Assembly (NCBI GenBank): GCA_002840835.1
Contig: PHCQ01000021.1
Location: forward strand, 1-64,000
Origin: Betaproteobacteria bacterium HGW-Betaproteobacteria-16
GTDB lineage: Bacteria > Pseudomonadota > Gammaproteobacteria > Burkholderiales > Burkholderiaceae_C
Length of the DNA: 64,000 nt
Reading direction: 5' to 3'
A program made the position numbers and the translations under genes. The notes below the pieces were generated by a model, which saw only the letters and a program-made list of their open reading frames with translations, was not told where the DNA came from and searched no databases. This document shows positions 5,637 to 42,884 of the stretch, in pieces (positions within the stretch are counted from its first letter, which is position 1; every line of letters begins with the position of its first letter).

Positions 5637-8600
5637 CGGACGATCTCGCGCCAGGAGAGGCGGCCGCGGAAGCCCGTGGAACCGCCGGGGTTGAGGGCAA
5701 CATCCTCCACCGGTGGCTCTGAACCACCCACGACAAGACGAGGGTTACCTCCGAGACCCAATATCACGGGCTCACCAGGTTTTCCGACTCCTGGATCGAT
5801 GGATCCCGGGTAGACCCCATTTAGGCTGTCGTCGGCAAAATTGCCATCGTCGTCAATGTCGAATAAGGGACTCGTCAGACGGCCCCCGGTGAACGGGTTC
5901 ACCGCATTCACATAACCGCGACCACCTGGCCTACACACATCCTCCACGGGGATGACGGAGCTCGCCAGCAAAGTGGGGTCTGCCAGCATGTAGAAGCGTG
6001 AAGCCGTCACCATGCGTTCGCCTTCAAGGACGCCGTTGACTGTTAAGTCAATCACCCAACCTCTGCTGGTCTGCATGGCATTGGGTTCAATCTCCCTGAA
6101 GGTGCGCACGGGCCTGCCCGCGATTTCGCCCACGCTGAGCAGACCGGGTGTTTGAAGCAGCTCACTGCGCAATATAGGGGTGCCTGTGTCAACCAGGCCG
6201 TACCACGACTGCAGCTCGGTGTTGGACGGGTCGGACGTCTGGAAGTCGCTGCCAGTGCCGAAATGCACAAACCATCTGCCCACATGTGGATCGCCAGCGT
6301 ACTCCTGTTGGGTTTTCATGGTCAGGGTGATCGGCGCCGTGATGGGTTGTGCCACACCACCACTGCTGGCGGTGAACAAGGGTTGACCACCGTGGGCAAT
6401 CGACCATTCAGAAGGTGTGTTGCTGGAGAGGTCAAACTTCCAGACGTTGCCCATGAGGTCACCGGCATAGGCTGTTGTGACCCTGCCGGCTGTATCCAGA
6501 ATGAGGCCCGGAGTGGCCAGTCCATTGTCGCCCGCCACGGTGGTGTCAATCTTGCGAATCAGGTCGCCGGTGCTCAAGTTGAAAACATAGAGCACGGCTC
6601 GCTGACTGGTGCTGTTGTAGCCGTTGCCGATGATCACAGCCCATGTCCCATCTTGCAGTCGGGCGATGATGGGGCGGCCCAGCATGAAGCCCAGATCCGC
6701 ATCGGTGGGGGAAAAGTACTCCCAAAGCACGTCATCGCCATCGAAGTTGGCCGGGTCTGTCACATCGAGGCCAAACAAGCCTTTGCCGCCGCGGCCCAGG
6801 GCGCCCACCAAGTAGTTGCGGCCAGCCGTCTGGGCCCTGTTGGAGACGGCGATGTCGCCATCCACAAAAAATTCGTGGCTTTGATCAAAGCCCACTTGAG
6901 ACAGGTTCCTTAGGCGGCTGAGGCCGGCGCTGGGAATGTACGCAAACTGTTCGATTCCAGTCACGGAACTGAATGCGTGCAACATGCCATCATTGGCGCC
7001 GATGAATACGGTTTCAGTGTCTCGTAGGAAGAAGGGTGGGGAATGCGAGATGTCTCCCAGCACGGTGTTGGGATTGCGGTCCCGCAGTGTTCCGCCATTT
7101 TCTAGCTCGTTCGTGCGAACTCCCCGTAGGTAGCTCAGGACGCTGCTGGAATTGTCCAACAGCGCTTGTTCGCCCGCAGACAGCAGATCCCATTGAAACT
7201 CCGTGCCATCCAGATTGCCGCTGGCCATGGAGCCAAAGTAGATCCGGCGCGATGCAGGAGCTGGAATGAGCGATGAGGCCCGCCACGCAGGCGCATCCGC
7301 AACACCAGTGGTCGAAACCTGGTAAGCGAGAAGGTCACCCGACCATTTTTCACTGTTGAAGAGGCCCTGGTAGACAAAGGTATCGGTCGACAGGTTGGTG
7401 CTGTTGGCCACCACGTTGCCGCCGCTACCGGCGCGGTCAATGATGTTGTCGAAAGCCCTGCGGAGGGACTCCTTGAGTTCGAGCGGGTTCTGCACAAAGA
7501 AATAGGTGTCCGGCACACCGTCGCCGTCCTGGTCCCACTCAGAGGTCTGATCGAGTGTGCCGCTGTTGTTGCGATCCACGTAGCCGCCATACTTGGCTGC
7601 ATACCAGAGGGGATCCTTGAGCAAGGTGGCCGCGGGGTTGTTGCTCGGCGTGAAGACGTAGGCGACCGGCGCTGGAGAACCCGTTGGGCTGGCGTACGGC
7701 AAGGTGCTGCAGCCGGCCGGCATGGGGCTTTGGTTGCAGTCACCTGGCGCCTGGCCAGGCCTCACATTGAGAAAGTAGGCCGGTGTGTCATTGCGGTCCC
7801 TGGCCACCAGGTAGATGCCGTCGGCAGAGGAGCCGGAAACAATGTACCCCATGGAGTGACCGATGCCGCCGGCCTCATAGGTGGGCGTCACGGTCACTTC
7901 CACCTGGCCCGATGCGTTCTCCTGGATCACGTACCTTGCGATCGCATCCATGTCGTGGTCGGCACCTTGCTCCACGTCTTCAAAGTTGATCTGGAACTCT
8001 GCGTAGTAGCGCCCGTTGTTGACTGATGCGTCTGCATCTCCTGAGCCCGAGTTGGCAATCCGCTCAACGTAGAAGTCCACGATCTGGTTGGTGGGCTGGA
8101 ATTGGCCACTGGCGGCGTTGATGCCACTGCCGCTGACGGATTTGGCAAACGGGACGATGGTGATCAGGCGACCGCTGGACGTACGGACCTCAACCTTTGG
8201 CAAGGGTGAACTGAGCGCAACAATGTAATTGTCGATGGTTTGCCTGCCATCCAGGTCAGACCGAAGGTCGGTTTCCTTGGCGTACTTGGAAACGGATGCA
8301 CTGTAGTAGCTGCCCTGCTTGGTGGGCTCTTCGGGTGCCAGGCCGCGGAGTCGCCCCAATGACGTCACGGTCTTGGGAGTGGGGGCGGTGTCATAGTTGG
8401 CATCGGACTGACCAATGAAGCGCAAGCCCGTGATGTTGGATTCAAGGGTTGTGATGGTGCTGCCGATGGTTTCAACATTCAAGCCCGTCAGGTCGCCGGT
8501 AAAGGATGCAAAGTAAGAGCCTGGCAGTTGGTTTGAATCGAAGGAGGGATTGACATCCGATATGGTCAGAAAATTGGCACGGGCACAAGATGCGCCGCTG

Positions 8601-31832: not shown

Positions 31833-32291
31833 TCAATCGTCCACGGAGGCGCTCCACCGGTCGTTCCAGGGCGCAGCGCCGGGTCGGCCACGCAGCTGGT
31901 CAATGTCGCGTCGGTCGCGTTTGGTGGGGCGCCCGATCGGCTGAGAGTGTGCCGGCTCTGGCGCCAGCCGACGCCGCTCGGCGGCCTCGACGCGGAGTGC
32001 GATGGACGCTTCGGTTTCTTCAAACAGCATCGCTGCCACGGGTGCGGGGCCCCGCACGCCACTGATGCCGCGAACCACGATGGTCCTCGTTCCGTCTGAG
32101 CTGCGAAGCTCGATCGTGTCACCCGTGCGCACTTCGCGCGACGGTTTGGCCGCCTGGCCATTGACGTGAACCCGGCCTTTGTCGATTTCATCGGCGCTGA
32201 GGGCGCGGGTCTTGTAAAAGCGGGCCGCCCAGAGCCATTTGTCGAGGCGGACGCGAACGGACGGGGTGGCGGAGCCGGGGGGAACAGGCAT
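31833..32291 (-). CDS. hslR: S4-domain RNA-binding heat-shock protein Hsp15-like
   Basis: A canonical S4 domain covers residues ~12-60 (VRLDKWLWAARFYKTRALSADEIDKGRVHVNGQAAKPSREVRTGDTIEL by its parts: RLDKWLWAARFYKTR and GRVHVNGQ). The C-terminal half is Arg-rich (RPTKRDRRDIDQLRGR), as in E. coli Hsp15, which binds free 50S subunits carrying a stalled peptidyl-tRNA. The length is 152 residues from the ATG at 32291. It is divergent from the sigma-54 regulator, 40 bp away. Confidence 0.9.
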   Translation of the reverse strand: MPVPPGSATPSVRVRLDKWLWAARFYKTRALSADEIDKGRVHVNGQAAKPSREVRTGDTIELRSSDGTRTIVVRGISGVRGPAPVAAMLFEETEASIALRVEAAERRRLAPEPAHSQPIGRPTKRDRRDIDQLRGRPGAAPWNDRWSASVDD

Positions 32292-32331
32292 CGTGCTTGA
32301 GTTCAGCTGGTGGACACGACCGAAAGGTAAC

Positions 32332-33798
32332 ATGACAAGCATGACCCAAGACGACCGTCTGCCGCGAGACGCGCAAAGCATTCTGGAACTGGCCGCCCGG
32401 TCCATGTTCGACCTGTTTGCCAACGCCAGCGAGGGCATGATGCTGGTGGACCGCAACGCACGGGTGGTGTGGATCAACGACCAGTACCGCCGCTTTTTGC
32501 CGGCCCTGGGGTTTGAGCGCGAAGAGGATTTCGTCGGGCATCAGGTCTCCAGCGTGGTGCAGAACACCCAGATGCACCAGGTGCTGGCCACAGGAAAGCC
32601 CATCCTGATCGACCTGTTGAGCAACAAGGCCGGCACCTTTGTGGTGAGCCGGATTCCCCTGCGCGACGAAGCGGGAGAAGTGATCGGCGTGCTGGGCATC
32701 GTGCTGTTTGACCACCCCGAGACCACGCTGCAACCTCTGATCACCAAGTTCGCCCGTCTGGAGCAGGACCTGAACGACGCTCGGCGTGAACTGGCCAATC
32801 AGCGCCGCACCAAGTACACCTTCGCCAGTTTCGTGGGAAGCAGCCCGGGTGCACTGGAGGTCAAGCGCCAGGCCAGGCGGGCGGCGCAGTCGGCCAGCCC
32901 GGTGCTGCTATTGGGTGAGACCGGCACGGGCAAGGAGTTGCTGGCACATGCCATTCATGCCGCCTCGCCCCGGGCCGGTCGACCGTTTGTGAGCGTGAAC
33001 ATGGCGGCTGTGCCCGACACTTTGCTGGAGGCCGAGTTTTTTGGTGTGGCACCCGGCGCGTTCACCGGGGCCGACAAGAAGGGGCGGGACGGCAAGTTCA
33101 AGCTGGCCGATGGAGGCACCCTGTTTCTGGACGAGCTGGGTGACATGCCGCCTTCGGTGCAGGTGAAGCTGCTGCGTGCCTTGCAAGAGGGTGAAATCGA
33201 GCCACTGGGCTCGAACAAGATCGTGCGTTTTGACGTGCGCGTGGTCGCCGCCACTTCGCGTGACCTGCAGCAGATGGTGCGCGATGGCGATTTCCGGGAA
33301 GACCTTTATTACCGCCTCAATGTCCTGCCCATTCGCGTGCCGCCCTTGCGTGAGCGCCAGGGCGACATCCATCTGCTGATCGAAGCCTTGTGCGAGGACA
33401 TCGCCGCCCGGGGCGGCGGGCCTCAGCTCGAGCTGACTTGTGACGCGCAGGCCTTGCTGGCGGCGCAGGTCTGGCGCGGCAACATCCGTGAACTGCGCAA
33501 CGTGCTCGAACAACTGGCCCTGCGCAGCGACACCCATCACATCGAGGCCGCGCAGGTGGGCGCGGTGCTGGCCGAAGCCGGGCTGACACTCCTGGAGCCG
33601 TTGGCGGTGTCGTCTGCTGCGCCTGCGTTACCGGAGCAGGGTTCCGCGTTCAGGCCACTGCCCGACCAGATCGCCGAGCTGGAGCGCAGGGCCATTCGTG
33701 AAGCACTCGCGCGCACCGACGGCAATCGCGCCGCGGCTGCAAGGCTGCTGGGCATCTCCCGAGCCAGTTTGTATGACCGGTTGCAAGCGATGCTTTGA
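32332..33798 (+). CDS. Sigma-54-dependent enhancer-binding regulator (PAS-AAA+-Fis)
   Basis: The 488-residue protein has three parts. An N-terminal PAS-type sensor covers residues ~25-130 (FANASEGMMLVDRNARVVWINDQY). A sigma-54 interaction AAA+ domain has Walker A GETGTGKE (~residue 195), GAFTGA (~241), Walker B GGTLFLDELGD and the R-finger region REDLYYRLNVLPI. A C-terminal Fis-type helix-turn-helix contains NRAAAARLLGISRASLYDRL. No receiver domain is present, so it senses a ligand or partner directly. It immediately precedes a sigma-54 promoter and operator-like inverted repeats driving the transporter/depolymerase genes, so it is very probably their activator. Its architecture is shared with the 3-hydroxybutyrate regulator PA2005 (HbcR) of Pseudomonas aeruginosa; orthology is untested. 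Confidence 0.93.
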   Translation: MTSMTQDDRLPRDAQSILELAARSMFDLFANASEGMMLVDRNARVVWINDQYRRFLPALGFEREEDFVGHQVSSVVQNTQMHQVLATGKPILIDLLSNKAGTFVVSRIPLRDEAGEVIGVLGIVLFDHPETTLQPLITKFARLEQDLNDARRELANQRRTKYTFASFVGSSPGALEVKRQARRAAQSASPVLLLGETGTGKELLAHAIHAASPRAGRPFVSVNMAAVPDTLLEAEFFGVAPGAFTGADKKGRDGKFKLADGGTLFLDELGDMPPSVQVKLLRALQEGEIEPLGSNKIVRFDVRVVAATSRDLQQMVRDGDFREDLYYRLNVLPIRVPPLRERQGDIHLLIEALCEDIAARGGGPQLELTCDAQALLAAQVWRGNIRELRNVLEQLALRSDTHHIEAAQVGAVLAEAGLTLLEPLAVSSAAPALPEQGSAFRPLPDQIAELERRAIREALARTDGNRAAAARLLGISRASLYDRLQAML

Positions 33799-33800
33799 GT

Positions 33801-33815
33801 GTCTGGAATTCAGTC
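33801..33815. promoter_or_regulatory. Operator-like inverted repeat, copy 1 (candidate UAS)
   Basis: GTCTGGAATTCAGTC is a near-palindrome and matches 12 of 15 bases of the perfect repeat at 33854. Their centres are 53 bp apart, about five helical turns. Such spaced sites are typical for enhancer-binding regulators. Confidence 0.6.
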
Positions 33816-33838
33816 ATATGTCTTTTTTATAGACATAT
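33816..33838. promoter_or_regulatory. Inverted repeat between the two candidate activator sites
   Basis: ATATGTCT and AGACATAT pair perfectly around a seven-base TTTTTAT centre. It shares the GTCT/AGAC half with the flanking operators. It could be a further regulator site or a weak terminator for the regulator gene, although it lacks GC and a proper T-tail. Confidence 0.4.
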
Positions 33839-33853
33839 TTGCTTGAGCAAATT

Positions 33854-33868
33854 GTCTGAATTTCAGAC
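33854..33868. promoter_or_regulatory. Operator-like perfect inverted repeat, copy 2 (candidate UAS)
   Basis: GTCTGAATTTCAGAC has perfect 7-bp arms around one central base. It lies about 55 bp upstream of the sigma-54 -24 element, with a second copy at 33801, as expected for upstream activating sequences. Confidence 0.65.
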
Positions 33869-33920
33869 GACATGCTCGACTGCTCGGCGAAAACATGAAC
33901 AAAATCAAATGACTTGTCTG

Positions 33921-33938
33921 TTGGCACGAAGCCTGCAA
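33921..33938 (+). promoter_or_regulatory. Sigma-54 (-24/-12) promoter
   Basis: TTGGCACGAAGCCTGCAA matches the consensus TGGCACG-N4-TTGCA with a single difference (CTGCA). The GG (33923-33924) and GC (33935-33936) have the required spacing. It lies 53 bp before the substrate-binding protein gene and just downstream of an enhancer-binding regulator gene. Confidence 0.88.
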
Positions 33939-33990
33939 TGAAAGGGTACGGCGCATCGCGCTGTGCTTCCATTCCAACAGGAGACAAGAC

Positions 33991-35193
33991 ATGACAAACC
34001 CCACCCGCCGCCTGGCGGTCATCGCGCTCGCCTGCGCCGCTTCCCTTGCCGCTTCCGTTGCCACGGCCCAGGCCAGCAAGGGCGAAATCCGCATTGCCCA
34101 CGTGTATGACAAGACCGGCCCGCTGGAGGCGTATGCCAAGCAGACGCACACCGGCCTGATGATGGGGTTGAACTACGCCACCCAGGGCACCATGATGGTC
34201 AATGGCAAGAAGCTGGTGGTGATCGAGAAAGACAGCCAGTTCAAGCCCGACGTGGGCAAGGCGCAGCTCGCCGCAGCCTATGCTGACGACAAGGCCGACA
34301 TCGCCATTGGCCCGACCGGCTCCGGCGTGGCTCTTGCCATGCTGCCGGTGGCCGAGGAATACAAGAAGATCCTGCTGGTGGAGCCGGCCGTGGCCGATTC
34401 GATCACCGGCGACAAGTGGAACAAGTACATCTTCCGCACCGGTCGCAACAGCTCGCAAGATGCGATCTCCAATGCCGTGGCACTGGACAAGGCGGGCACC
34501 ACGATCGCCACCCTCGCGCAGGACTACGCGTTTGGCCGCGACGGCGTGAAGGCGTTCAAGGACGCCATCAAGAACGCGAAGCTGGTGCACGAGGAATACC
34601 TGCCCACCAACACCACCGACTTCACCGCCGGTGCCCAGCGCCTCATCGACAAGCTCAAGGACCAGCCCGGTCGCAAGGTGATCTTCATCATCTGGGCTGG
34701 AGCGGGCAACCCGTTCAAGATCGCTGATCTGGATCTCAAGCGCTACAACATCGAGATCGCCACCGGCGGCAACATCCTGCCTGCCATGACGGCGTACAAG
34801 CAGTTCCCGGGCATGGAGGGCGCGAGCTACTACTACTTCGGCCTGCCCAAGAACGCGGTCAACGATGCCATGGTGGCCGAGCACTACAAGCAGTTCAAGG
34901 CACCGCCTGACTTCTTCACCGCAGGCGGTTTCTCTGCTGCCATGGCGGTGGTCACGGCACTGAAGAAGACCGGTGGCGACACCAACACCAACAAGCTCAT
35001 CCAGACCATGGAAGGCATGAGCTTCGACACGCCCAAGGGCACCATGACCTTCCGCAAGGAAGACCACCAGGCCATGCAGAGCATGTACCACTTCAAGATC
35101 AAGGTCGACCCGGCGTTCGCCTGGGGCGTGCCGGAACTGGTGCGCGAGATCAAGCCTGAAGACATGGACGTTCCGATCCGGAACAAGCGCTGA
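33991..35193 (+). CDS. ABC transporter periplasmic substrate-binding protein (Peripla_BP_6/branched-chain amino acid type)
   Basis: A signal peptide (LAVIALACAASLAASVATAQA) precedes a type I periplasmic binding protein of 400 residues in all. The start of the mature domain reads GEIRIAHVYDKTGPLEAYAKQTHTGL. Later motifs include IEKDSQFKPDVGKAQLAAAY, IAIGPTGSGVALAMLPVAEEY and YAFGRDGVKAFKDAIKNA, as in LivJ/AmiC/UrtA-like proteins. It has a good AGGAG ribosome site and is the first gene after the sigma-54 promoter. Its permeases and ATPases lie downstream, beyond a PHB depolymerase gene. The ligand is not recognisable from sequence; 3-hydroxybutyrate or an oligomer is the context-based guess. 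Confidence 0.92.
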   Translation: MTNPTRRLAVIALACAASLAASVATAQASKGEIRIAHVYDKTGPLEAYAKQTHTGLMMGLNYATQGTMMVNGKKLVVIEKDSQFKPDVGKAQLAAAYADDKADIAIGPTGSGVALAMLPVAEEYKKILLVEPAVADSITGDKWNKYIFRTGRNSSQDAISNAVALDKAGTTIATLAQDYAFGRDGVKAFKDAIKNAKLVHEEYLPTNTTDFTAGAQRLIDKLKDQPGRKVIFIIWAGAGNPFKIADLDLKRYNIEIATGGNILPAMTAYKQFPGMEGASYYYFGLPKNAVNDAMVAEHYKQFKAPPDFFTAGGFSAAMAVVTALKKTGGDTNTNKLIQTMEGMSFDTPKGTMTFRKEDHQAMQSMYHFKIKVDPAFAWGVPELVREIKPEDMDVPIRNKR

Positions 35194-35202
35194 AAGCGCT
35201 TG

Positions 35203-35312
35203 ACCCCCTGCGCCGCTGACGCGGCTTCCCCCTGAAAGGGGGACAACACGTGCGGCCCGGCAGAGCCGGTTCCGCCGTGTTCCTGGTTGGGTGCATTGCG
35301 CTCCGACCAGCT
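35203..35312 (+). repeat. GC-rich intergenic repeat element, copy C
   Basis: It starts about ten bases after the binding-protein stop. It reads CCCCCTGCGCCGCTGACGCGG, a CCCCCTGAAAGGGGG hairpin core, GCGGCCCGGCAGAGCCGGTTCC, and a tail containing GTGTTCCTGGTTGGGTGCATTGCGCTCCG that matches copy B. It lies inside the presumed operon between the binding protein and the depolymerase, so it may lower read-through or protect the upstream mRNA. Confidence 0.8.
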
Positions 35313-35391
35313 CGTTTCTGCTCGCCAAGGAACCCCTGGAAACACAGGGGCCGGAGATGTTTCGTCCGAAAACACCCCAGGAGACAAACCC

Positions 35392-36906
35392 ATGAGCTTC
35401 CAGCCGCTTCGTTCGCTTGCCGCTTTCGCTACGCTCACTGCGATTTCCGCCAGCACGGCATTCGCTGCCATCAACCTTCCCGCCTACAACGTGGACACCA
35501 GCCAGACCACGGTATCCGGCCTGTCTTCTGGTGGCTTCATGGCCAACCAGCTGGGTATTGCGTATTCCTCGCTGTTCAAGGGTGTGGGCGTTTTTGCCGC
35601 CGGGCCATACATGTGTGCGGGCCTGAGCAACTACACCTCGTGCATGTACAACGCCAGCATTTCCAGCACGGCATTGGCGAACATGCAGAACCGCATCGAC
35701 ACCTGGAGCGCCAGCGGGGCCATCGACAACAAAGCCAACATCGCGGGGCAGAAGGTGTACCTGTTCATCGGCACCAGCGACTACACCGTGGGTCAGAACC
35801 CCACCACCGCGCTCAAGACGCAGTACACCAACAACGGCGTTCCTGCGGCCAACCTGGAGCACGTGGTGCGCAGCGGTGCGGCCCACACCTTCCCCACGGA
35901 CTTCGACAGCACCGGCAACAACGGCTGCGGCAGTGCCGCATCGCCCTACATCAGCAACTGCAGTTACGACGGCGCCAAGGCAGTTCTGCAGAAGTTCTAC
36001 GGCACGCTGAACCCGCGCAACAACGCGCCAGCGGCGGGCAACTACATCGAGTTCAACCAAACGCAGTTCACCACCAACCCCGGCATGGCTTCGACTGGCT
36101 GGGCTTACGTGCCGGCGAACTGTGCCAGCGGCAGCCAGTGCAAGGTGCACGTGGCGTTGCACGGCTGCCAGCAGAGCACCGACAAGATCGGTGACAAGTT
36201 CGTCAAGAACACGGGCTACAGCCGCTGGGCCGACACCAACAGCATCATCGTGCTGTTCCCCCAGACCAAAACCGACAACACCAGCCGCCAGACCGCTGCC
36301 AGCGGCTCGCTGGCCAACCCCAACGCCTGCTGGGACTGGATCGGCTGGTACGGCGGCAACTTCGCGCAGAAGGCCGGCACGCAGATGGCCGCCATCAAGG
36401 CGATGGTGGAACGCGTGTCTTCCGGCGCAGGCTCCGGCGGCGGTGGCACACCGGCCTTGCCTGCCCCCACCGGCGTGACCACCTCCAACCCCACCAACAC
36501 CAGCATGACGGTGACCTGGAACGCAGTGAGCGGTGCCGACAGCTACAACGTCTACCGCAACGCCAACAAGACCAATGCATTGCCGGTCATGGGCACCAGC
36601 TTCACCGACACCGGCCTTGCCGCTGCCACGCAGTACAGCTGGACGGTGCGCGCGGCCGATGAAAACGGCATCGAGGGTGCCGTGTCGGTGGCCGCCACCG
36701 GCACCACCACCGGCAGTGCGCCACCGCCTGCCACCTGCTACACGGCCAGCAACTATGCCCACACCACGGCGGGCCGTGCCTACCAGTCCGGTGGCTACAC
36801 CTACGCCAACGGGTCCAACCAGAACATGGGCCTGTGGAACATCTTCATCACCCGAACCTTGAAGATGACCGGCACCAATCACTACGTCATCGGCACCTGC
36901 CCTTGA
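35392..36906 (+). CDS. phaZ: Extracellular poly(3-hydroxybutyrate) depolymerase, type 2 catalytic domain with fibronectin III linker
   Basis: A signal peptide (residues 1-25, ending ...STAFA) precedes the catalytic domain. The lipase box GLSSG (43-47, nucleophile Ser45) lies near the N-terminus, ahead of the oxyanion segment VALHGCQQ (254-261); this order defines type 2 catalytic domains. Asp130 (FIGTSDYT) and His165 (SGAAHTFPTD) complete the likely triad. A Gly-rich hinge near 345-353 leads to a fibronectin type III domain (~355-440). A C-terminal ~60-residue domain with two cysteines resembles a polymer-binding module. The length is 504. The ATG at 35392 has a GGAGAC ribosome site. It sits between a binding protein and ABC genes, which is unusual for a depolymerase. 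Confidence 0.92.
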   Translation: MSFQPLRSLAAFATLTAISASTAFAAINLPAYNVDTSQTTVSGLSSGGFMANQLGIAYSSLFKGVGVFAAGPYMCAGLSNYTSCMYNASISSTALANMQNRIDTWSASGAIDNKANIAGQKVYLFIGTSDYTVGQNPTTALKTQYTNNGVPAANLEHVVRSGAAHTFPTDFDSTGNNGCGSAASPYISNCSYDGAKAVLQKFYGTLNPRNNAPAAGNYIEFNQTQFTTNPGMASTGWAYVPANCASGSQCKVHVALHGCQQSTDKIGDKFVKNTGYSRWADTNSIIVLFPQTKTDNTSRQTAASGSLANPNACWDWIGWYGGNFAQKAGTQMAAIKAMVERVSSGAGSGGGGTPALPAPTGVTTSNPTNTSMTVTWNAVSGADSYNVYRNANKTNALPVMGTSFTDTGLAAATQYSWTVRAADENGIEGAVSVAATGTTTGSAPPPATCYTASNYAHTTAGRAYQSGGYTYANGSNQNMGLWNIFITRTLKMTGTNHYVIGTCP

Positions 36907-36940
36907 TGAAAGCCCGAGACACCGAACCCGCCAGGAGACC

Positions 36941-37708
36941 ATGAGCTTGTTATCCACCCAGAACCTGACCGTGCGCTTCGGCGGACACGTGGCGGTCAAC
37001 AACGTGACCTGTGCTTTCGAGCCCGGCACGCTGACCGCCATCGTGGGCCCCAATGGTGCCGGCAAGACCACGTATTTCAACTTGATCTCCGGGCAGATCA
37101 AGGCCAGTGCCGGCAGCGTGAAGCTGGGTGGCAGGGACATCTCCGCTTTGGGCGCGCCTGCGCGTGCGCAGGCCGGTCTGGGTCGGGCGTTTCAGCTCAC
37201 CAACCTGTTTCCCAACCTCACGGTACGCGAGAACGTGCGGCTGGCGGTGCAGGCGAGGGCGGGTGCGGGTCTGAACCTGTGGCGCATCTGGAGCGACCGG
37301 CGCGATCTGACCGAGAAAGCAGACGCCGTGCTGGAGGCGGTGGCTTTGTCGGACCGGCGCGATGCCCTCGCATCCAGCCTGCCGCACGGCGACCAGCGCA
37401 AGCTGGAGGTGGGCATCCTTATGGCGCTGGAGCCTCAGGTGTTCATGTTCGACGAACCCACTGCCGGCATGAGCGTGGACGAAGCGCCGGTGATCCTGAA
37501 CCTGATCCGGCAACTCAAAGCCGACAGGACCAAGACCATCCTGCTGGTGGAACACAAGATGGACGTGGTGCGCGAACTCTCGGACCGCATCATCGTGTTG
37601 CACAACGGCGAACTGGTGGCCGACGGCGAGCCGGCCGCGGTGATTGCCTCGCCTGTGGTGCAGCAGGCCTACCTGGGCATCAACCCTGAAGAAGAGGTGA
37701 CCGCATGA
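36941..37708 (+). CDS. livG: ABC transporter ATP-binding protein (LivG-like)
   Basis: This is a 255-residue HAAT-family ATPase with Walker A GPNGAGKTTYF, Q-loop region GRAFQLTNLFPNLTVRENV, a variant signature LPHGDQRKLEVGILMAL, and Walker B VFMFDEPTAGMS. The C-terminal LGINPEEE ending is usual for LivG. It energises uptake together with LivF. An AGGAG ribosome site precedes the ATG, 34 bp after the depolymerase. The gene symbol reflects the family; the substrate need not be leucine-type amino acids. Confidence 0.93.
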   Translation: MSLLSTQNLTVRFGGHVAVNNVTCAFEPGTLTAIVGPNGAGKTTYFNLISGQIKASAGSVKLGGRDISALGAPARAQAGLGRAFQLTNLFPNLTVRENVRLAVQARAGAGLNLWRIWSDRRDLTEKADAVLEAVALSDRRDALASSLPHGDQRKLEVGILMALEPQVFMFDEPTAGMSVDEAPVILNLIRQLKADRTKTILLVEHKMDVVRELSDRIIVLHNGELVADGEPAAVIASPVVQQAYLGINPEEEVTA

Positions 37709-38439
37709 GCGATCTGCTGACGCTGAAGGATGTGCACACGCACATTGCCGCGTACCACATCCTCCACGGCGTGGACCTTGTGGTGCCGGCCAACCAGCTC
37801 ACCATGCTGCTCGGCCGCAACGGCGCCGGCAAGACCACCACGCTGCGCACCATCATGGGCCTGTGGCATGCCAGCCAGGGCAGCGTCACGCTGGACGGGC
37901 AAGACATCACGCAGAAGCCCACGCCGGACATTGCGCAGTCGGGCGTGGCCTATGTGCCGGAAAGCATGGGCATCTTCTCTGACCTTTCTGTGCGCGAGAA
38001 CATGCTGCTGGCCGCCCGTGGCGCACGCAAGCTCGACGACATCGACACCGATCGGCTGGAGTGGATCTTCGGCCTGTTCCCCGCCATGAAAAAATTCTGG
38101 CTGCACCCGGCGGGCAAGCTCAGCGGCGGACAGAAGCAGATGCTGGCGGTGTCGCGCGCCATCATCGAGCCGCGCAAGCTGCTGCTGATCGACGAGCCCA
38201 GCAAGGGTCTGGCGCCGGCCATCATCCAGAACATGATCGAGGCGTTCCGCCAGCTCAAGGCGGCGAACACCACCATTCTGCTGGTGGAGCAGAACTTCAA
38301 CTTCGCCCGTCAGCTCGGCGATTCGGTGGCCGTGATGGACGACGGCCGCGTGGTGCACAGCGGCTCCATGGCCGAGCTGGCCGCCGACGAAGCGCTGCAA
38401 GCCAGGCTGCTGGGCCTGAGCCTGGGAGCGCACCAATGA
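37705..38439 (+). CDS. livF: ABC transporter ATP-binding protein (LivF-like)
   Basis: The 244-residue ATPase contains Walker A GRNGAGKTTTLRTIMG, signature LSGGQKQMLAVSRAI, Walker B LLLIDEPSKGLAP and the H-loop region ILLVEQNFNFA. The VPESMGIFSDLSVRENMLL segment is typical of LivF. Its ATG overlaps the livG stop (ATGA), which implies coupled translation of the heterodimeric ATPase pair. Confidence 0.93.
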   Translation: MSDLLTLKDVHTHIAAYHILHGVDLVVPANQLTMLLGRNGAGKTTTLRTIMGLWHASQGSVTLDGQDITQKPTPDIAQSGVAYVPESMGIFSDLSVRENMLLAARGARKLDDIDTDRLEWIFGLFPAMKKFWLHPAGKLSGGQKQMLAVSRAIIEPRKLLLIDEPSKGLAPAIIQNMIEAFRQLKAANTTILLVEQNFNFARQLGDSVAVMDDGRVVHSGSMAELAADEALQARLLGLSLGAHQ

Positions 38440-38479
38440 ACCCACACACCATGCACGCCCAGGAATCAGGAGACACCGC

Positions 38480-39466
38480 GTGATCGCACTCAAGGAACTC
38501 GACTGGAAGCCCATGGCACTGGTGCCGGCGCTGGCACTCATTGCGCTTCCGCTGACCGGCAGCCCGTCCACCTGGCTCACGCTCACAGTGGCGGGGCTGG
38601 CCATGGGCATGATCGTCTTCATCATCGCTTCCGGCCTCACGCTGGTGTTTGGCTTGATGGACGTGCTGAACTTCGGCCACGGCGTGTTCATTGCGCTGGG
38701 CGCCTTTGTGGCCACCACGGTACTGGGCACCATGGGCGGCTTCACCACCAGCGACAGCCTCTGGCTCAACCTCATGGCGCTGTTCCCTGCCATGCTGGTG
38801 GCCATGGCGGTGGCGGGTGCCATCGGGCTGGTGTTCGAGCGCTTCATCATCCGCCCGGTGTACGGCATGCACCTCAAGCAGATCCTGATCACCATGGGCG
38901 GCATGATCATTGGCGAAGAACTCATCAAGGTGTTCTGGGGGCCTGAGCAGATTCCGCTGCCTTTGCCCGAAGCGCTGCGCGGCTCCATCCTGCTGGGCGA
39001 CGCGGCCGTGGCCAAGTACCGGCTGCTGGCCGTGATCGTGGGCGCTGCGGTGTTTGCCGCCATGGTGTGGACGCTCAACAGCACCAAGGTGGGTTTGCTG
39101 ATCCGTGCCGGCGTGCAGGATCGCGAAATGGTCGAGTCCCTGGGCTACCGCATCAAGCGCCTGTTCGTGGGCGTGTTTGTGGTGGGATCGGCGCTGGCCG
39201 GCCTGGGCGGCGTGATGTGGGGGCTGTACCAGGAGTCGGTGATTCCGCAGATGGGCCACCAGGTCAACGTGCTGATCTTCATCGTGATCATCATCGGTGG
39301 CCTGGGCTCCACGCTGGGTGCGCTCATTGGTGCGCTGCTGGTGGGGCTGATGGCCAACTACACCGGTTTCCTGGTGCCCAAGGTGGCGCTGTTCTCCAAC
39401 ATCGCGCTGATGGTCGCCATTCTGTTGTGGCGGCCGCAGGGTGTTTACCCCGTCACGAGTCGATGA
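38480..39466 (+). CDS. livH: ABC transporter permease (LivH-like)
   Basis: This 328-residue hydrophobic protein has about eight membrane helices. Family motifs include IASGLTLVFGLMDVLNFGHGVFIALGAF near the N-terminus and RAGVQDREMVESLGYRIKRLFVGVF, the cytoplasmic EAA-like coupling loop. It ends with GGLGSTLGALIGALLVGL and LLWRPQGVYP. The start is GTG with AGGAG upstream. Repeat copy D follows the stop directly. Confidence 0.92.
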   Translation: MIALKELDWKPMALVPALALIALPLTGSPSTWLTLTVAGLAMGMIVFIIASGLTLVFGLMDVLNFGHGVFIALGAFVATTVLGTMGGFTTSDSLWLNLMALFPAMLVAMAVAGAIGLVFERFIIRPVYGMHLKQILITMGGMIIGEELIKVFWGPEQIPLPLPEALRGSILLGDAAVAKYRLLAVIVGAAVFAAMVWTLNSTKVGLLIRAGVQDREMVESLGYRIKRLFVGVFVVGSALAGLGGVMWGLYQESVIPQMGHQVNVLIFIVIIIGGLGSTLGALIGALLVGLMANYTGFLVPKVALFSNIALMVAILLWRPQGVYPVTSR

Positions 39467-39533
39467 CACCCCCCCGCGCCGCCTTCGGCGTCACCCCCCA
39501 GGGGGCGCAGCCCTTGGACCGGCGGAGCCGGAT
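39467..39533 (+). repeat. GC-rich intergenic repeat element, copy D
   Basis: It begins immediately after the livH stop: CCCCCCCGCGCCGCCTTCGGCGTC, hairpin core CCCCCCAGGGGG, then GGACCGGCGGAGCCGG. The 3' tail found in copies B and C is not conserved here. It lies within the transport operon, between the two permease genes. Confidence 0.78.
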
Positions 39534-39601
39534 CTTCGGCTGCTGCTGGATGGCGGGTTCGCGTTCGACGCGGGTTGGCATCCATATCCAAGAGGTTTTT
39601 C

Positions 39602-40753
39602 ATGTTGAGTAGATTGCTTTCCAACGACCTTCCGCGCAGCCGCTGGCTGGTCGCGCTGCTGGTGGTGCTGTTCCTGGGGCTGGCGTTCGCGCCGTTCCTT
39701 TTTCCGGGTGTGAAGGCGCTGAATGTGGCGGCCAAGGTGCTGATCTTCATTGCGCTGGTGGCGAGCTTCGACCTGCTGCTGGGCTACACCGGCATCGTGA
39801 GTTTTGCGCACACCATGTTCTTCGGCATTGGCGCTTATGGCGTGGCCATTTCGCTCAGTGCGGCCGACTCGCCTACCTGGACCGCGCTCATCACCGGTGT
39901 GCTCGCCGCACTGGTGGTGTCCTTGGTGCTGTCGCTGGTGATCGGGCTGTTCTCTCTTCGGGTCAAGGCCATCTTTTTCGCCATGATCACGCTGGCAGTG
40001 GCCACGGCCTTTCTCACGCTGGCTTCGCAGCTCTCTGAGTTCACCGGTGGCGAAGACGGGCTCACATTCCGGGTGCCCGAGTTGCTGCAGCCCGGCTTCT
40101 CACTGCGCGAGGAACCCCTGATCACCCCGCTGGGCGAGGTGGATCTGAACGGGCGCTTCATCAGCTACTACCTGATCTTTGTTTCCGTGATCGCCATCTT
40201 CCTCACGTTGCTGCGCATCGTGAACTCGCCGTTCGGACGCGTGCTGCAGGCCATTCGCGAAAACGATTTCCGCGCCGAGGCACTGGGCTACCGCACGGTG
40301 ATCTACCGCACGCTGTCCAACGTGCTGTCGGCCAGCTTTGCCACGCTGGCGGGGTGCCTGCTGGCGATCTGGCTGCGCTACAACGGCCCAGACACCTCGC
40401 TGTCGTTCGAGATCATGCTGGACATCCTGCTCATCGTCGTGATCGGTGGCATGGGCACGATGTACGGCGCGGTGATTGGCAGCGTGCTGTTTGTGCTCGC
40501 GCAAAGCTACTTGCAGGATCTGTTGCGCGCAGCTGGCAACGCGACCGAGGGCATCCCGCTGCTGCCCGCATTGCTCACCCCGGACCGGTGGCTCCTGTGG
40601 ATGGGCGTGCTGTTCGTGCTGTCGGTGTACCACTTTCCCACGGGCATCGTGGGTCGGTTGAGGGAGCGAACCGCCAGAGCGCTGCGTTCCTTGCAAGCCC
40701 CTGGTAGCGGAAATGCCGGCAACACCCACCCGAGGCAGCCAGCCGCACGGTGA
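39602..40753 (+). CDS. livM: ABC transporter permease (LivM-like)
   Basis: This 383-residue permease has about ten membrane helices. It includes SFDLLLGYTGIVSFAHTMFFGIGAYG (the LivM GYxGxxSxxH segment), FGRVLQAIRENDFRAEALGY (coupling loop) and IGGMGTMYGAVIGSVLFV. The ATG at 39602 has an AGAGG ribosome site. It would form the membrane channel with LivH. The C-terminal ~20 residues are hydrophilic. Confidence 0.93.
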   Translation: MLSRLLSNDLPRSRWLVALLVVLFLGLAFAPFLFPGVKALNVAAKVLIFIALVASFDLLLGYTGIVSFAHTMFFGIGAYGVAISLSAADSPTWTALITGVLAALVVSLVLSLVIGLFSLRVKAIFFAMITLAVATAFLTLASQLSEFTGGEDGLTFRVPELLQPGFSLREEPLITPLGEVDLNGRFISYYLIFVSVIAIFLTLLRIVNSPFGRVLQAIRENDFRAEALGYRTVIYRTLSNVLSASFATLAGCLLAIWLRYNGPDTSLSFEIMLDILLIVVIGGMGTMYGAVIGSVLFVLAQSYLQDLLRAAGNATEGIPLLPALLTPDRWLLWMGVLFVLSVYHFPTGIVGRLRERTARALRSLQAPGSGNAGNTHPRQPAAR

Positions 40754-40803
40754 TCTTGAACGGCCCCAGTTTGCCAGGCACCATAAAACCTCAGCAGGTC
40801 CCT

Positions 40804-41742
40804 ATGAACACTTCAGCCATAGTCCAATCGCGCTACCTTGCTTGCGAAGGTCGCGAAATCCACTTCATGGACTGGGCGCCCGCCACCCCCAACGGATCGA
40901 CCGTGGTGGCCTGGCACGGCCTGGCACGCACCGGGCGCGACATGGATCCTTTGGCTGCCCATCTTGCAGCGCTCGGCTACCGGGTGATTTGTCCCGACAC
41001 CATCGGGCGCGGGTTGAGCCAGTGGAGCCCGGACCCGCAAGCCGAATACTGTCTGGACTTCTACGCCCGCATTGCCACGGCCCTGGTGGACCAGTTGAAG
41101 CTGGACCGATTTTTATGGGTGGGCACATCGATGGGTGGCGCCATCGGCATGGTGTGCGCTGCCGGTCCATTGCATGGTCGCATCCAGCGGCTGGTGCTCA
41201 ACGACATTGGCCCCAAACTGGCCGACGCGGCGGTTGAGCGCATCCGCAGCTATGCCGGGCATCCGGCCGCGTTTGCCACGGTCGGTGAGCTGGAGCAGTA
41301 CTTTCGCACCGTGTACAAGCCCTACGGATTTCTCACCGATGCGCAGTGGACCCTGCTCACCGAAAGTTCCGCCCGCCGCCTGCCCGACGGCCGTGTGACA
41401 CCTCACTACGACCCGGCCATGGTGCAGCAGTTCGTGCATCACCCGGCCGATTACGACCTGTGGGACACCTACGACCGCATCGATGTGCCGGTACTGTGCC
41501 TGCGCGGTGCCGAATCCGATCTGCTGTTGTCAGACACCGCCGAGGCCATGCGCGACAGGGGTCCGCGTGCGCTGGTGGTGACCATTGCAGGTTGTGGGCA
41601 CGCGCCAGCGCTCAATGTGCCCGAACAGCTGGATCTGGTGCAGCGCTTCCTGGCGGACGGGCAGGTCCAGCCTGCCGAGTTGCATGCCTTGCTGGCACAG
41701 GGCGCTTCGCCCGGCGAGCGTCCTTCATCGATCGGTCACTGA
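40804..41742 (+). CDS. Alpha/beta hydrolase
   Basis: The 312-residue protein has the alpha/beta-hydrolase nucleophile elbow GTSMGG (Ser at about residue 109), the oxyanion HGLARTGRD segment, a catalytic Asp in LRGAESD and His in GCGHAP. No signal peptide is visible, so it is probably cytoplasmic. It follows livM by 50 bp as the last gene of the sigma-54-headed run. By position it could cleave imported hydroxyalkanoate oligomers or another ester, but its sequence only supports a general hydrolase. Confidence 0.88.
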   Translation: MNTSAIVQSRYLACEGREIHFMDWAPATPNGSTVVAWHGLARTGRDMDPLAAHLAALGYRVICPDTIGRGLSQWSPDPQAEYCLDFYARIATALVDQLKLDRFLWVGTSMGGAIGMVCAAGPLHGRIQRLVLNDIGPKLADAAVERIRSYAGHPAAFATVGELEQYFRTVYKPYGFLTDAQWTLLTESSARRLPDGRVTPHYDPAMVQQFVHHPADYDLWDTYDRIDVPVLCLRGAESDLLLSDTAEAMRDRGPRALVVTIAGCGHAPALNVPEQLDLVQRFLADGQVQPAELHALLAQGASPGERPSSIGH

Positions 41743-41774
41743 ACAGCAACTGAGTGGAATGGGATGAGCTGGTT

Positions 41775-41799
41775 GGACTGAGCGAAACACGCTCAGTCC
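41775..41799. terminator. Bidirectional hairpin between the hydrolase gene and hemH
   Basis: GGACTGAGCG and CGCTCAGTCC form a perfect 10-bp stem with an AAACA loop. The hemH stop codon lies inside the stem. There is no long T-run, so efficiency is uncertain, but the position between convergent genes fits a shared terminator. Confidence 0.6.
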
Positions 41800-42884
41800 T
41801 TGGCGCCCAACGCCAGCGCTCGCTCGCGGCTGTCCTTGAGTGCCATCGGATCGTCGGCCTGTTTCGTTGGCCAACCCTGCAAGTGCCGCTCGGTCAGATC
41901 GGCCAGCGCGCGGATCCAGTCGGGGCTGTCGTTGAGGCAGTCGATGTAGTGGAACTGTTCACCACCCGCGTGCAGAAAGGCTTCGCGGGCTTCCATGCGG
42001 ATCTCTTCCAGCGTTTCCAGGCAGTCGCTGGTGAAACCCGGGCAGATCACATCCACCGTTTTGACGCCTTGTTTGCCCATGGCGATCAGTGTGGGCTCGG
42101 TGTAGGGCTCCAGCCACTTGGCTTTGCCAAAGCGCGACTGGAACGTGAGTTTGTAGCGGTCCTTGGGCAGGCCCAGCCGTTCGGCCAGCAGGCGCGCCGT
42201 CTTGTGGCACTCACAGTGGTAGGGGTCGCCCAGTGTCAGGGTGCGCTCGGGCACGCCATGAAAGCTCATGACGAGCTGCTCGGCCTGGCCGTGGTGCATC
42301 CAGTGCGCCCGCACCCGCTTGGCCAGCGCGTCGATGTAGCCGGGGTCGTCGTGATAACGGTTGACGAAGCGGAATTCGGGCAAGTGGCGGCGCTTCATGC
42401 CCCACTGGGCGGCCGCGTCGAACACGCTGGCGGTGGTGGTGCCGCTGTACTGCGGGTAGGCCGACAGGATGAGCACGCGCGTCATGCCCTCTGCCTTGAG
42501 TTCGTCCAGCACCGCCGGGATGGACGGGTTGCCGTAGCGCATGGCGTAGCGCACGCTGACCTGGTGGCCGCGTTCGCCCAGGTAGCCGCGCAGCAGGGTG
42601 GCCTGTTTTTCGGTCCACACCTTCAATGGCGAGCCTTCGGGCGTCCAGATGCTGGCGTATTTTGCTGCCGATTTTTTCGGGCGCAGGCGCAGGATGATGC
42701 CGTGCAGGATCAGCCACCAGATTGCTTTGGGGATCTCGACCACACGGTGGTCGCCCAGGAATTCGCTGAGGTACCGGCGCAGGGCAGGGGCGGTGGGTTC
42801 GTCGGGGGTGCCCAGGTTGCACAGCACGATGGCCGTTCGGGCGGCCTGGCCATGCGAGTAGGTGGGTTCGGGCTTGAATGGCAT
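41793..42884 (-). CDS. hemH: Ferrochelatase
   Basis: HemH inserts Fe2+ into protoporphyrin IX, the last step of protoheme synthesis, at the inner membrane. The 363-residue protein shows IVLCNLGTPDEPTAPALRRYLSEFLGD, LILSAYPQYSGTTTASVFDA, MSFHGVPERTLTLGDPYHCECHKTA with the conserved active-site His, and FQSRFGKAKWLEPYTEPTL. It ends with CPGFTSDCLETLEEI and a C-terminal tail. It is divergent from the HAD hydrolase, 19 bp away. Confidence 0.97.
   Translation of the reverse strand: MPFKPEPTYSHGQAARTAIVLCNLGTPDEPTAPALRRYLSEFLGDHRVVEIPKAIWWLILHGIILRLRPKKSAAKYASIWTPEGSPLKVWTEKQATLLRGYLGERGHQVSVRYAMRYGNPSIPAVLDELKAEGMTRVLILSAYPQYSGTTTASVFDAAAQWGMKRRHLPEFRFVNRYHDDPGYIDALAKRVRAHWMHHGQAEQLVMSFHGVPERTLTLGDPYHCECHKTARLLAERLGLPKDRYKLTFQSRFGKAKWLEPYTEPTLIAMGKQGVKTVDVICPGFTSDCLETLEEIRMEAREAFLHAGGEQFHYIDCLNDSPDWIRALADLTERHLQGWPTKQADDPMALKDSRERALALGAKD

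Follow-up and report, generated by a model that had tools for sequence, protein, structure and literature searches.

A sigma-54-linked locus combining a PHB depolymerase with a candidate ABC importer for 3-hydroxybutyrate oligomers

We identified in Betaproteobacteria bacterium HGW-Betaproteobacteria-16 a locus that we read, with a probability of roughly 55%, as a sigma-54-controlled PHB-utilisation unit whose HAAT-type ABC importer would take up oligomers of 3-hydroxybutyrate (3HB), perhaps together with the monomer. In the window (the whole stretch of 64,000 nucleotides that was analysed), the ORF list and profile searches gave eight open reading frames at 32332-41742, all on the + strand: a regulator (REG), a binding protein (SBP), a depolymerase (PhaZ), LivG-, LivF-, LivH- and LivM-like transporter genes and an alpha/beta hydrolase (ABH). 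The gene set, coordinates, strand, palindromes and -24/-12 site given in a preliminary description of this DNA were all recovered:

32332..33798, + strand: REG, PAS / sigma-54 AAA+ / Fis-HTH activator, 488 aa (Pfam PAS_4, Sigma54_activat 225.6 bits, HTH_8)
33800..33816, unstranded: palindrome copy 1, probable activator site, 2 mismatches to TGTCTGAAnTTCAGACA
33819..33835, unstranded: palindrome copy 2, TGTCT-N7-AGACA, 5 mismatches to the consensus
33853..33869, unstranded: palindrome copy 3, 1 mismatch to the consensus, the best site of its own assembly
33922..33936, + strand: predicted -24/-12 (sigma-54) promoter, TGGCACGAAGCCTGC, TGGCACG-N4-CTGC, 10 of 11 consensus positions
33991..35193, + strand: SBP, HAAT-type periplasmic binding protein, 400 aa (Peripla_BP_6, 177.4 bits)
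35392..36906, + strand: PhaZ, type 2 PHB depolymerase with fn3 and C-terminal domain, 504 aa (NF050059)
36941..37708, + strand: LivG-like ATPase (ABC_tran)
37705..38439, + strand: LivF-like ATPase (ABC_tran)
38480..39466, + strand: LivH-like permease (BPD_transp_2)
39602..40753, + strand: LivM-like permease (BPD_transp_2)
40804..41742, + strand: ABH, alpha/beta hydrolase, probably cytoplasmic, 312 aa (Abhydrolase_1)

By profile and alignment, PhaZ is a member of the extracellular type 2 PHB depolymerases: it scored 380.9 bits against NF050059 (type 2 scl-PHA depolymerase; cut-off 280) and could be aligned with PDB 2d80/2d81, which belong to the same class. Ser45, Asp130 and His165, which we take to be the catalytic triad, are intact and invariant in 22 aligned sequences, and the N-terminus, hydrophobic by eye, suggests export.

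The REG-SBP-LivGFHM-ABH core is found again in related genomes. Of the 112 distinct loci whose sequence extends more than 2.6 kb ahead of SBP, 101 have REG there; conserved gene order and co-occurrence of depolymerase and transporter, the test set by the preliminary description, held across relatives. PhaZ was present in 48 of 125 distinct loci, a PhaZ-enriched collection (PhaZ-bearing genomes were taken first and the rest are nearest relatives), for which reason proportions are given from a sample of 150 family genomes instead; in all 48 it lay between SBP and livG. Mapped on the transporter tree, the PhaZ label changed at least 23 times, yet kept one slot throughout. Among the 150 family genomes, PhaZ directly followed SBP in 21 of the 24 holding both, and a PF10605 3HB-oligomer hydrolase lay inside the unit in 25 of 32. 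By presence and absence the genes show a modest association in this sample (Fisher p = 0.026 for PhaZ, 0.003 for PF10605, disregarding relatedness); the strong signal comes from adjacency. Judged by gene content, the unit is modular, with REG, transporter and ABH as its core and the depolymerase among its add-ons, which in other genomes include a PF10605 oligomer hydrolase, a second binding protein and a chemoreceptor. In the alphaproteobacterial unit of Mariluticola, a 3HB dehydrogenase sits between REG and SBP.

ABH was never missing where there was room for it (115 of 115 distinct loci), with or without PhaZ or PF10605. Its Ser109 and His266 are invariant and its Asp239 nearly invariant in 39 sequences. 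Of 28 loci outside the family, 15 also have a hydrolase gene after LivM, which in 10 is an ABH orthologue and in 5 a different type. A paralogue of ABH is encoded divergently from a 3HB dehydrogenase at 24 of 30 loci. PhaZc of C. necator is an intracellular 3HB-oligomer hydrolase, a small cytoplasmic alpha/beta hydrolase whose function is the one proposed here for ABH, the two being likened by function alone. The PF10605 3HB-oligomer hydrolases occur in sister units (1043.8 bits for one member confirmed), whereas ABH matched Abhydrolase_1 and related models and not PF10605, for which the organism's own genome gave no match at E up to 1e-20. This genome holds two 3HB dehydrogenase genes above the cut-off, both outside the locus.

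The region between REG and SBP carries conserved control elements. The promoter match is conserved upstream of SBP orthologues and more frequent than chance, at least 9 of 11 positions being matched in 128 of 137 such regions (duplicates and the window's own copy counted in) and in 5.3% of shuffled regions. The palindrome TGTCTGAAnTTCAGACA, at up to 3 mismatches, was found in 91 of 124 distinct upstream regions and in 0.13% of shuffles, a figure that measures conservation and is no independent test, since the motif was built from the same regions. It occurs twice in the window (0.11 expected), and the TGTCT-N7-AGACA dyad was found in 21 of 117 regions; across 20 shuffled sets no dyad exceeded a count of 4. 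When the organism's own genome was scanned, the two best palindrome sites both fell in the REG-SBP intergenic region. The third-best (C120, 2 mismatches) falls, by eye, within the coding sequence of an fba-like gene. Downstream lies a gene of the type 1 PHA-depolymerase family, separated from this site by what looks, by eye, like a hairpin and a T-rich stretch; given this position and hairpin, a wider REG regulon in this genome is not claimed. Ten terminator-like sites were found within 32200-42000 (6.6, sd 2.4, in shuffles), none of them in the wide SBP-depolymerase and livH-livM gaps. The locus is probably an operon with conserved order and one switch.

HbcR, the Pseudomonas regulator of 3HB use, combines a PAS domain, a sigma-54 AAA+ domain and a Fis-type HTH, and Pfam models recover the same make-up in REG. 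In C. taiwanensis, a REG homologue occurs with a GntP permease and a 3HB dehydrogenase, an arrangement that presumably resembles the hbcR locus. HbcR (PA2005 / PFLU2630) is described as a sigma-54 regulator responding to (R)-3HB (PMC10482368); REG is likewise a sigma-54 activator, likened to HbcR by make-up and gene context, but by its position would control an ABC importer with a depolymerase. Outside the family sample, a 3HB dehydrogenase was recognised in three of eight readable neighbourhoods of REG homologues: L179, with TRAP genes; L225, with a GntP permease; and L223. None was recognised in L178, L180, L181, L182 (L181 and L182 by eye only) or L226, an Azospirillum locus in which the homologue stands beside a mannonate dehydratase and TRAP genes. 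Neither of the distant units L223 and L225 has the palindrome. L223 has a -24/-12-like site (one mismatch) 69 bases ahead of its 3HB dehydrogenase, yet the locus overall has fewer such matches (5) than its shuffles (9.6).

On these grounds we infer that SBP binds the ligand, that ABH cleaves esters and that REG acts as the sensor, and the three would work together as follows. REG would bind at the palindromes and activate the operon when it senses 3HB or a related compound. The exported depolymerase would convert extracellular PHB into soluble 3HB oligomers and monomer; SBP would capture the oligomers, and perhaps the monomer, for transport by LivHM/LivGF. Cytoplasmic ABH would then cut the oligomer ester bonds, and 3HB dehydrogenase, encoded elsewhere in the genome, would oxidise 3HB to acetoacetate. 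This reading is supported by the single PhaZ slot, PF10605 within units, the constancy of ABH, the Mariluticola dehydrogenase and the link between the ABH paralogue and 3HB dehydrogenase, and also by the REG homologues near 3HB dehydrogenase in L179 and L225, the organism's own two dehydrogenases and the hydrolase after LivM outside the family. The PF10605 hydrolases of sister units and the 3HB dehydrogenase links likewise point to 3HB, in support of the preliminary proposal that 3HB or its oligomers are imported. Counted against this reading are the low share of REG homologues near 3HB dehydrogenase and the mannonate dehydratase beside that of L226.

The transporter could instead carry the 3HB monomer only, oligomers being cut before uptake and ABH acting on internal oligomers or other esters. 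The PF10605 hydrolases of some sister units have an apparent lipoprotein start and might release monomer before uptake, which makes monomer import possible and weighs against the oligomer reading, and the Mariluticola unit itself contains a 3HB dehydrogenase. ABH, however, keeps its place beside the transporter in units with and without PhaZ or PF10605, and we consider exclusive monomer transport rather unlikely. Somewhat more doubtful still is an importer for other or broader (hydroxy)acids or esters, to which the depolymerase would be an opportunistic addition in some lineages. Consistently with such a range, many R. palustris HAAT proteins are reported to bind fatty, dicarboxylic or aromatic acids (PMC3223731). 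Of 85 family units, 51 lack both extracellular enzymes, and 12 of the 28 non-family loci carry an acyl-CoA ligase, in several cases along with genes for MaoC and enoyl-CoA hydratase; these counts, together with the absence of PhaZ and PF10605 from the non-family loci (0/28 each), also tell against the main reading. Against a broader range stand the single recurrent PhaZ slot, the presence in units of PF10605 as a second dedicated PHB enzyme, and the relatives of REG and ABH linked to 3HB dehydrogenase.

The importer set is complete, with a Peripla_BP_6 protein, two BPD_transp_2 permeases and two ABC ATPases, and matches LivJK-FGHM, UrtABCDE and the R. palustris aromatic-acid systems in having a single type I binding protein and a pair each of permeases and ATPases. 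Unlike LivJK-FGHM and UrtABCDE, it is linked to PHB enzymes and reached no Liv cut-off (bits/cut-off: SBP 52.0/477, LivG 188.4/362, LivF 179.9/441, LivH 72.2/379, LivM 78.0/366) and no Urt cut-off (UrtA 60.8/492.75, UrtB 158.4/250.3, UrtC 119.8/296.2, UrtD 211.3/304.1, UrtE 217.2/285.8). That the transporter is simply one for branched-chain amino acids or urea, into whose genes a depolymerase landed by chance, as the automatic annotation of homologous permeases as branched-chain amino acid type might suggest, is therefore rejected as highly improbable, since all five subunits score far below these cut-offs and the recurrent slot and 3HB links exclude a single chance insertion. The closest fold to SBP is PDB 3n0x (= RPA4397; 70% identity), for which no ligand was found in the accessible open-access literature; RPA4397 is absent from the main text of PMC3223731.

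For 3HB uptake itself, hbtABC of Ruegeria pomeroyi (SPO2571-2573) is reported from mutants (PMC10130141, 2023); it shares the role proposed here but is a three-gene system, for which the accessible part of that report mentions no depolymerase link. Titles and abstract openings of the open-access literature yielded neither a 3HB- or PHB-linked HAAT importer of such arrangement nor a depolymerase embedded in an importer operon; consistently with the earlier suggestion that the importer may be new, the unit looks undescribed.

How PHB fragments enter bacteria that digest the polymer outside the cell is little documented, and in many named Burkholderiales this locus offers a specific candidate system; units with PhaZ are present in, among others, Acidovorax delafieldii DSM 64, Hydrogenophaga taeniospiralis and Variovorax boronicumulans. 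We give about even odds to the joint proposal of a widespread modular locus in which a HAAT importer would take up intact 3HB oligomers, a dedicated cytoplasmic hydrolase would cleave them and a 3HB-responsive sigma-54 switch would govern exchangeable modules. By analogy, such a locus would do for a polyester what the uptake of oligosaccharides and oligopeptides does for their polymers. If this is true, many annotations as branched-chain amino acid transporter would need correcting, the unit would serve as a marker for degraders of PHB bioplastic, and the solved homologue 3n0x would be a place to look for the ligand.

The preliminary description had read this region as a one-strand set of regulator, binding protein, depolymerase, transporter and hydrolase genes, and this gene content proved real, with both the domains and the depolymerase cut-off in agreement.

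Features of the unit, in order
32332-41742, +, whole unit, all genes on the same strand
First gene of the unit, +, REG, regulator with PAS, sigma-54 AAA+ and Fis-HTH domains
After REG, intergenic region holding palindromes and the -24/-12 site
33922-33936, the -24/-12 site, TGGCACG-N4-CTGC
After the intergenic region, +, SBP, Peripla_BP_6 binding protein
After SBP, +, PhaZ, short-chain PHA depolymerase of type 2, carrying an fn3 domain plus another C-terminal part
After PhaZ, +, LivG-like and LivF-like ATPases
After the ATPases, +, LivH-like and LivM-like permeases
Last gene of the unit, +, ABH, alpha/beta hydrolase

The window is contig 15 of a 5.79 Mb assembly (completeness 100, contamination 6.26), and its SBP is 97% identical to that of a Hydrogenophaga MAG, the nearest named relative. 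PhaZ passed its curated cut-off (380.9 bits against 280), aligned with the PHB depolymerase structures 2d80/2d81 along 317 residues, kept Ser45, Asp130 and His165 across 22 aligned sequences, and was the sole match to its own sequence in the assembly (E up to 0.001). None of the window's transporter subunits reached the curated Liv or Urt cut-offs.

Among 150 family genomes, 85 carried an orthologue of SBP (E up to 1e-50; single copy in 82), 32 had PhaZ, at 33 places (E up to 1e-20), and 42 had PF10605, the 3-hydroxybutyrate (3HB)-oligomer hydrolase 3HBOH, for which the own genome gave no hit (E up to 1e-20). Depolymerase and transporter did co-occur, a check proposed at the outset: PhaZ and SBP were adjacent in 21 of the 24 genomes holding both, and by coordinates 21 of the 33 PhaZ places followed SBP, in the same orientation, at a distance under 250 bp. 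3HBOH was inside the unit in 25 of the 32 genomes holding SBP and 3HBOH. Gene order was also conserved in relatives. In 125 distinct fetched loci, a set enriched for PhaZ, the depolymerase was present in 48, in every case (48/48) in the gap between SBP and livG; 3HBOH was present in 42, of which 41 had it between livM and ABH (the contig of the remaining locus, L092, stops short of ABH). ABH was found in all 115 loci with room for it, and of the 112 with room for REG, 101 had it upstream. Explaining PhaZ presence on a 116-row transporter tree required at least 23 changes (28–42 in 30 shuffles) and 3HBOH presence at least 18 (27–37 in 30 shuffles), while PhaZ versions, with identities to the window's copy down to 36%, were spread over distant clades in a quick tree with some long branches. 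These changes and divergent versions argue that the unit repeatedly keeps, loses or replaces its depolymerase at one fixed slot.

Sister loci showed further variation. A second HAAT binding protein occupied the livM-ABH slot in 21 of the 125 loci (e.g. L006:12910-14061), and others had a tandem pair of SBP copies (e.g. L003, L005, L118). In 16 loci (e.g. L076) a gene resembling, by eye, a TctA tripartite-tricarboxylate permease stood ahead of REG in the same orientation. Four distinct loci (L031/L098, L034/L086, L044, L106) had a chemoreceptor between REG and SBP, the one domain-checked (L034:1789-3330) carrying sCache_2 and MCPsignal domains; chemotaxis to PHB products is possible there.

The promoter and inverted repeats described earlier are present and kept in relatives. 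At least 9 of 11 -24/-12 consensus positions were found in 128 of 137 regions lying upstream of an SBP orthologue (a tally that includes duplicates and the copy in the window), against 5.3% of shuffled regions. An open dyad count over 117 regions found CTGAA-N-TTCAG in 32 and TGTCT-N7-AGACA in 21, with a maximum of 4 for any dyad in 20 shuffled sets. The palindrome TGTCTGAAnTTCAGACA, at up to 3 mismatches, occurred in 91 of 124 distinct regions versus 0.13% of shuffles, a count that measures conservation rather than providing an independent test, since the palindrome was derived from the same related sequences; 12 of the 124 had no site at up to 5 mismatches, and none was found in the distant loci of Mariluticola (L223) and Cupriavidus taiwanensis (L225). 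Because the two best sites of the own assembly both lie between REG and SBP, REG appears to be a local switch. The third-best site (L217:1501-1517; G000:C120:25018-25034) falls within a coding sequence resembling fba; a gene of the type 1 PHA-depolymerase family (263.3 bits, cut-off 150) follows about 0.4 kb later, and the site may be due to chance.

Evidence on the substrate came from outside the window. The gene between livM and ABH scored 1043.8 bits for PF10605 in the one sister unit scanned, the others being assigned to 3HBOH by similarity. On the Mariluticola halotolerans plasmid NZ_CP090961.1, one strand carries a REG homologue (48%), a 3HB dehydrogenase (369.8 bits, cut-off 307.05), SBP, two ATPases, two permeases and ABH (53%). 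Across 185 genomes of the class, REG homologues turned up at five places outside the genus: one (52%) with TRAP genes and an over-cut-off 3HB dehydrogenase nearby, one (54%) adjoining TRAP genes and a FadX-like CoA-transferase, one (53%) adjoining TRAP genes, an acyl-CoA synthetase lying several kb off, and two (49% and 38%) where no 3HB dehydrogenase was seen by eye. C. taiwanensis has a 48.6% homologue oriented divergently from a GntP permease and 3HB dehydrogenase; in Azospirillum oryzae a 49.9% homologue adjoins mannonate dehydratase, histidine kinase and TRAP genes, with no 3HB dehydrogenase in the neighbourhood. The dehydrogenase was thus recognised in three of eight REG-homologue neighbourhoods, Mariluticola included.

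An ABH paralogue in the own genome (40% identity) belongs to a family with at least one match in 78 of 80 family genomes, divergent to 3HB dehydrogenase in 24 of its 30 top-scoring loci and in the own genome itself (L184:4641-5576 (-) and 5656-6423 (+), on G000:C154); it is a candidate second cytoplasmic 3HB-oligomer hydrolase. Elsewhere, an ABH-family gene comes after a PF10605 gene in a genome lacking any SBP match (G018:C1:4499725-4502831), and another PF10605 gene adjoins PhaZ outside any transporter unit (L020); the enzymes also pair without the importer.

The PHB reading has evidence against it: of the 85 family units, 34 carry PhaZ and/or 3HBOH (12 both) and 51 carry neither extracellular enzyme. 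Outside the family we compared 28 loci (10 from one search, 6 plasmids, 12 from another; some are mutual close relatives), all with the complete SBP-LivGFHM set and all lacking both PhaZ and 3HBOH. REG preceded the set in the same orientation in 8, LivM was followed by an ABH orthologue in 10 and by another hydrolase in 5 (that of Hoeflea is 26% identical to ABH), and 3HB dehydrogenase was inside the unit only in Mariluticola. Twelve, L224 counted, had an acyl-CoA ligase at least 50% identical to that of L224. In these lineages the transporter may import something else. Four alphaproteobacterial plasmid units (L224, L229, L230, L231) pair this transporter with another kind of hydrolase and with an AMP-ligase/enoyl-CoA hydratase set, three adding MaoC and a short gene labelled phosphate acetyltransferase; their substrate is possibly another hydroxy-acid ester.

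The linkage to PhaZ and 3HBOH and the 3HB dehydrogenase contexts support, and widen, the proposal of an importer for 3HB or its oligomers; taking oligomer and monomer import together, we put the probability that a PHB product is the main substrate at roughly three in four. REG would sense 3HB or a relative and switch on the operon; (R)-3HB elicits a response of HbcR, the Pseudomonas sigma-54 regulator of 3HB use (PMC10482368). Judging from family knowledge and its intact residues, PhaZ would break down PHB outside the cell. Going by gene linkage, SBP with LivHMGF would import the products. ABH, with conserved catalytic residues and no signal peptide evident by eye, would split imported oligomers, and 3HB dehydrogenase, with two genes over cut-off in the own genome, would finish the pathway. 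Uptake of the monomer instead is best argued from the 3HBOH present in some units; the best argument for oligomer import is the constant hydrolase adjoining the permeases.

All the parts come from known families; the assembly and its likely substrate appear undescribed, as initially suspected. Among the titles and opening lines of abstracts listed in open-access searches, none described an ABC importer of 3HB or 3HB oligomers, or a depolymerase embedded in one; much PHB work is published in subscription journals, so this novelty is provisional. Taken as a whole, the genomic comparison supports reading the unit as a modular, widely conserved PHB-utilisation locus.
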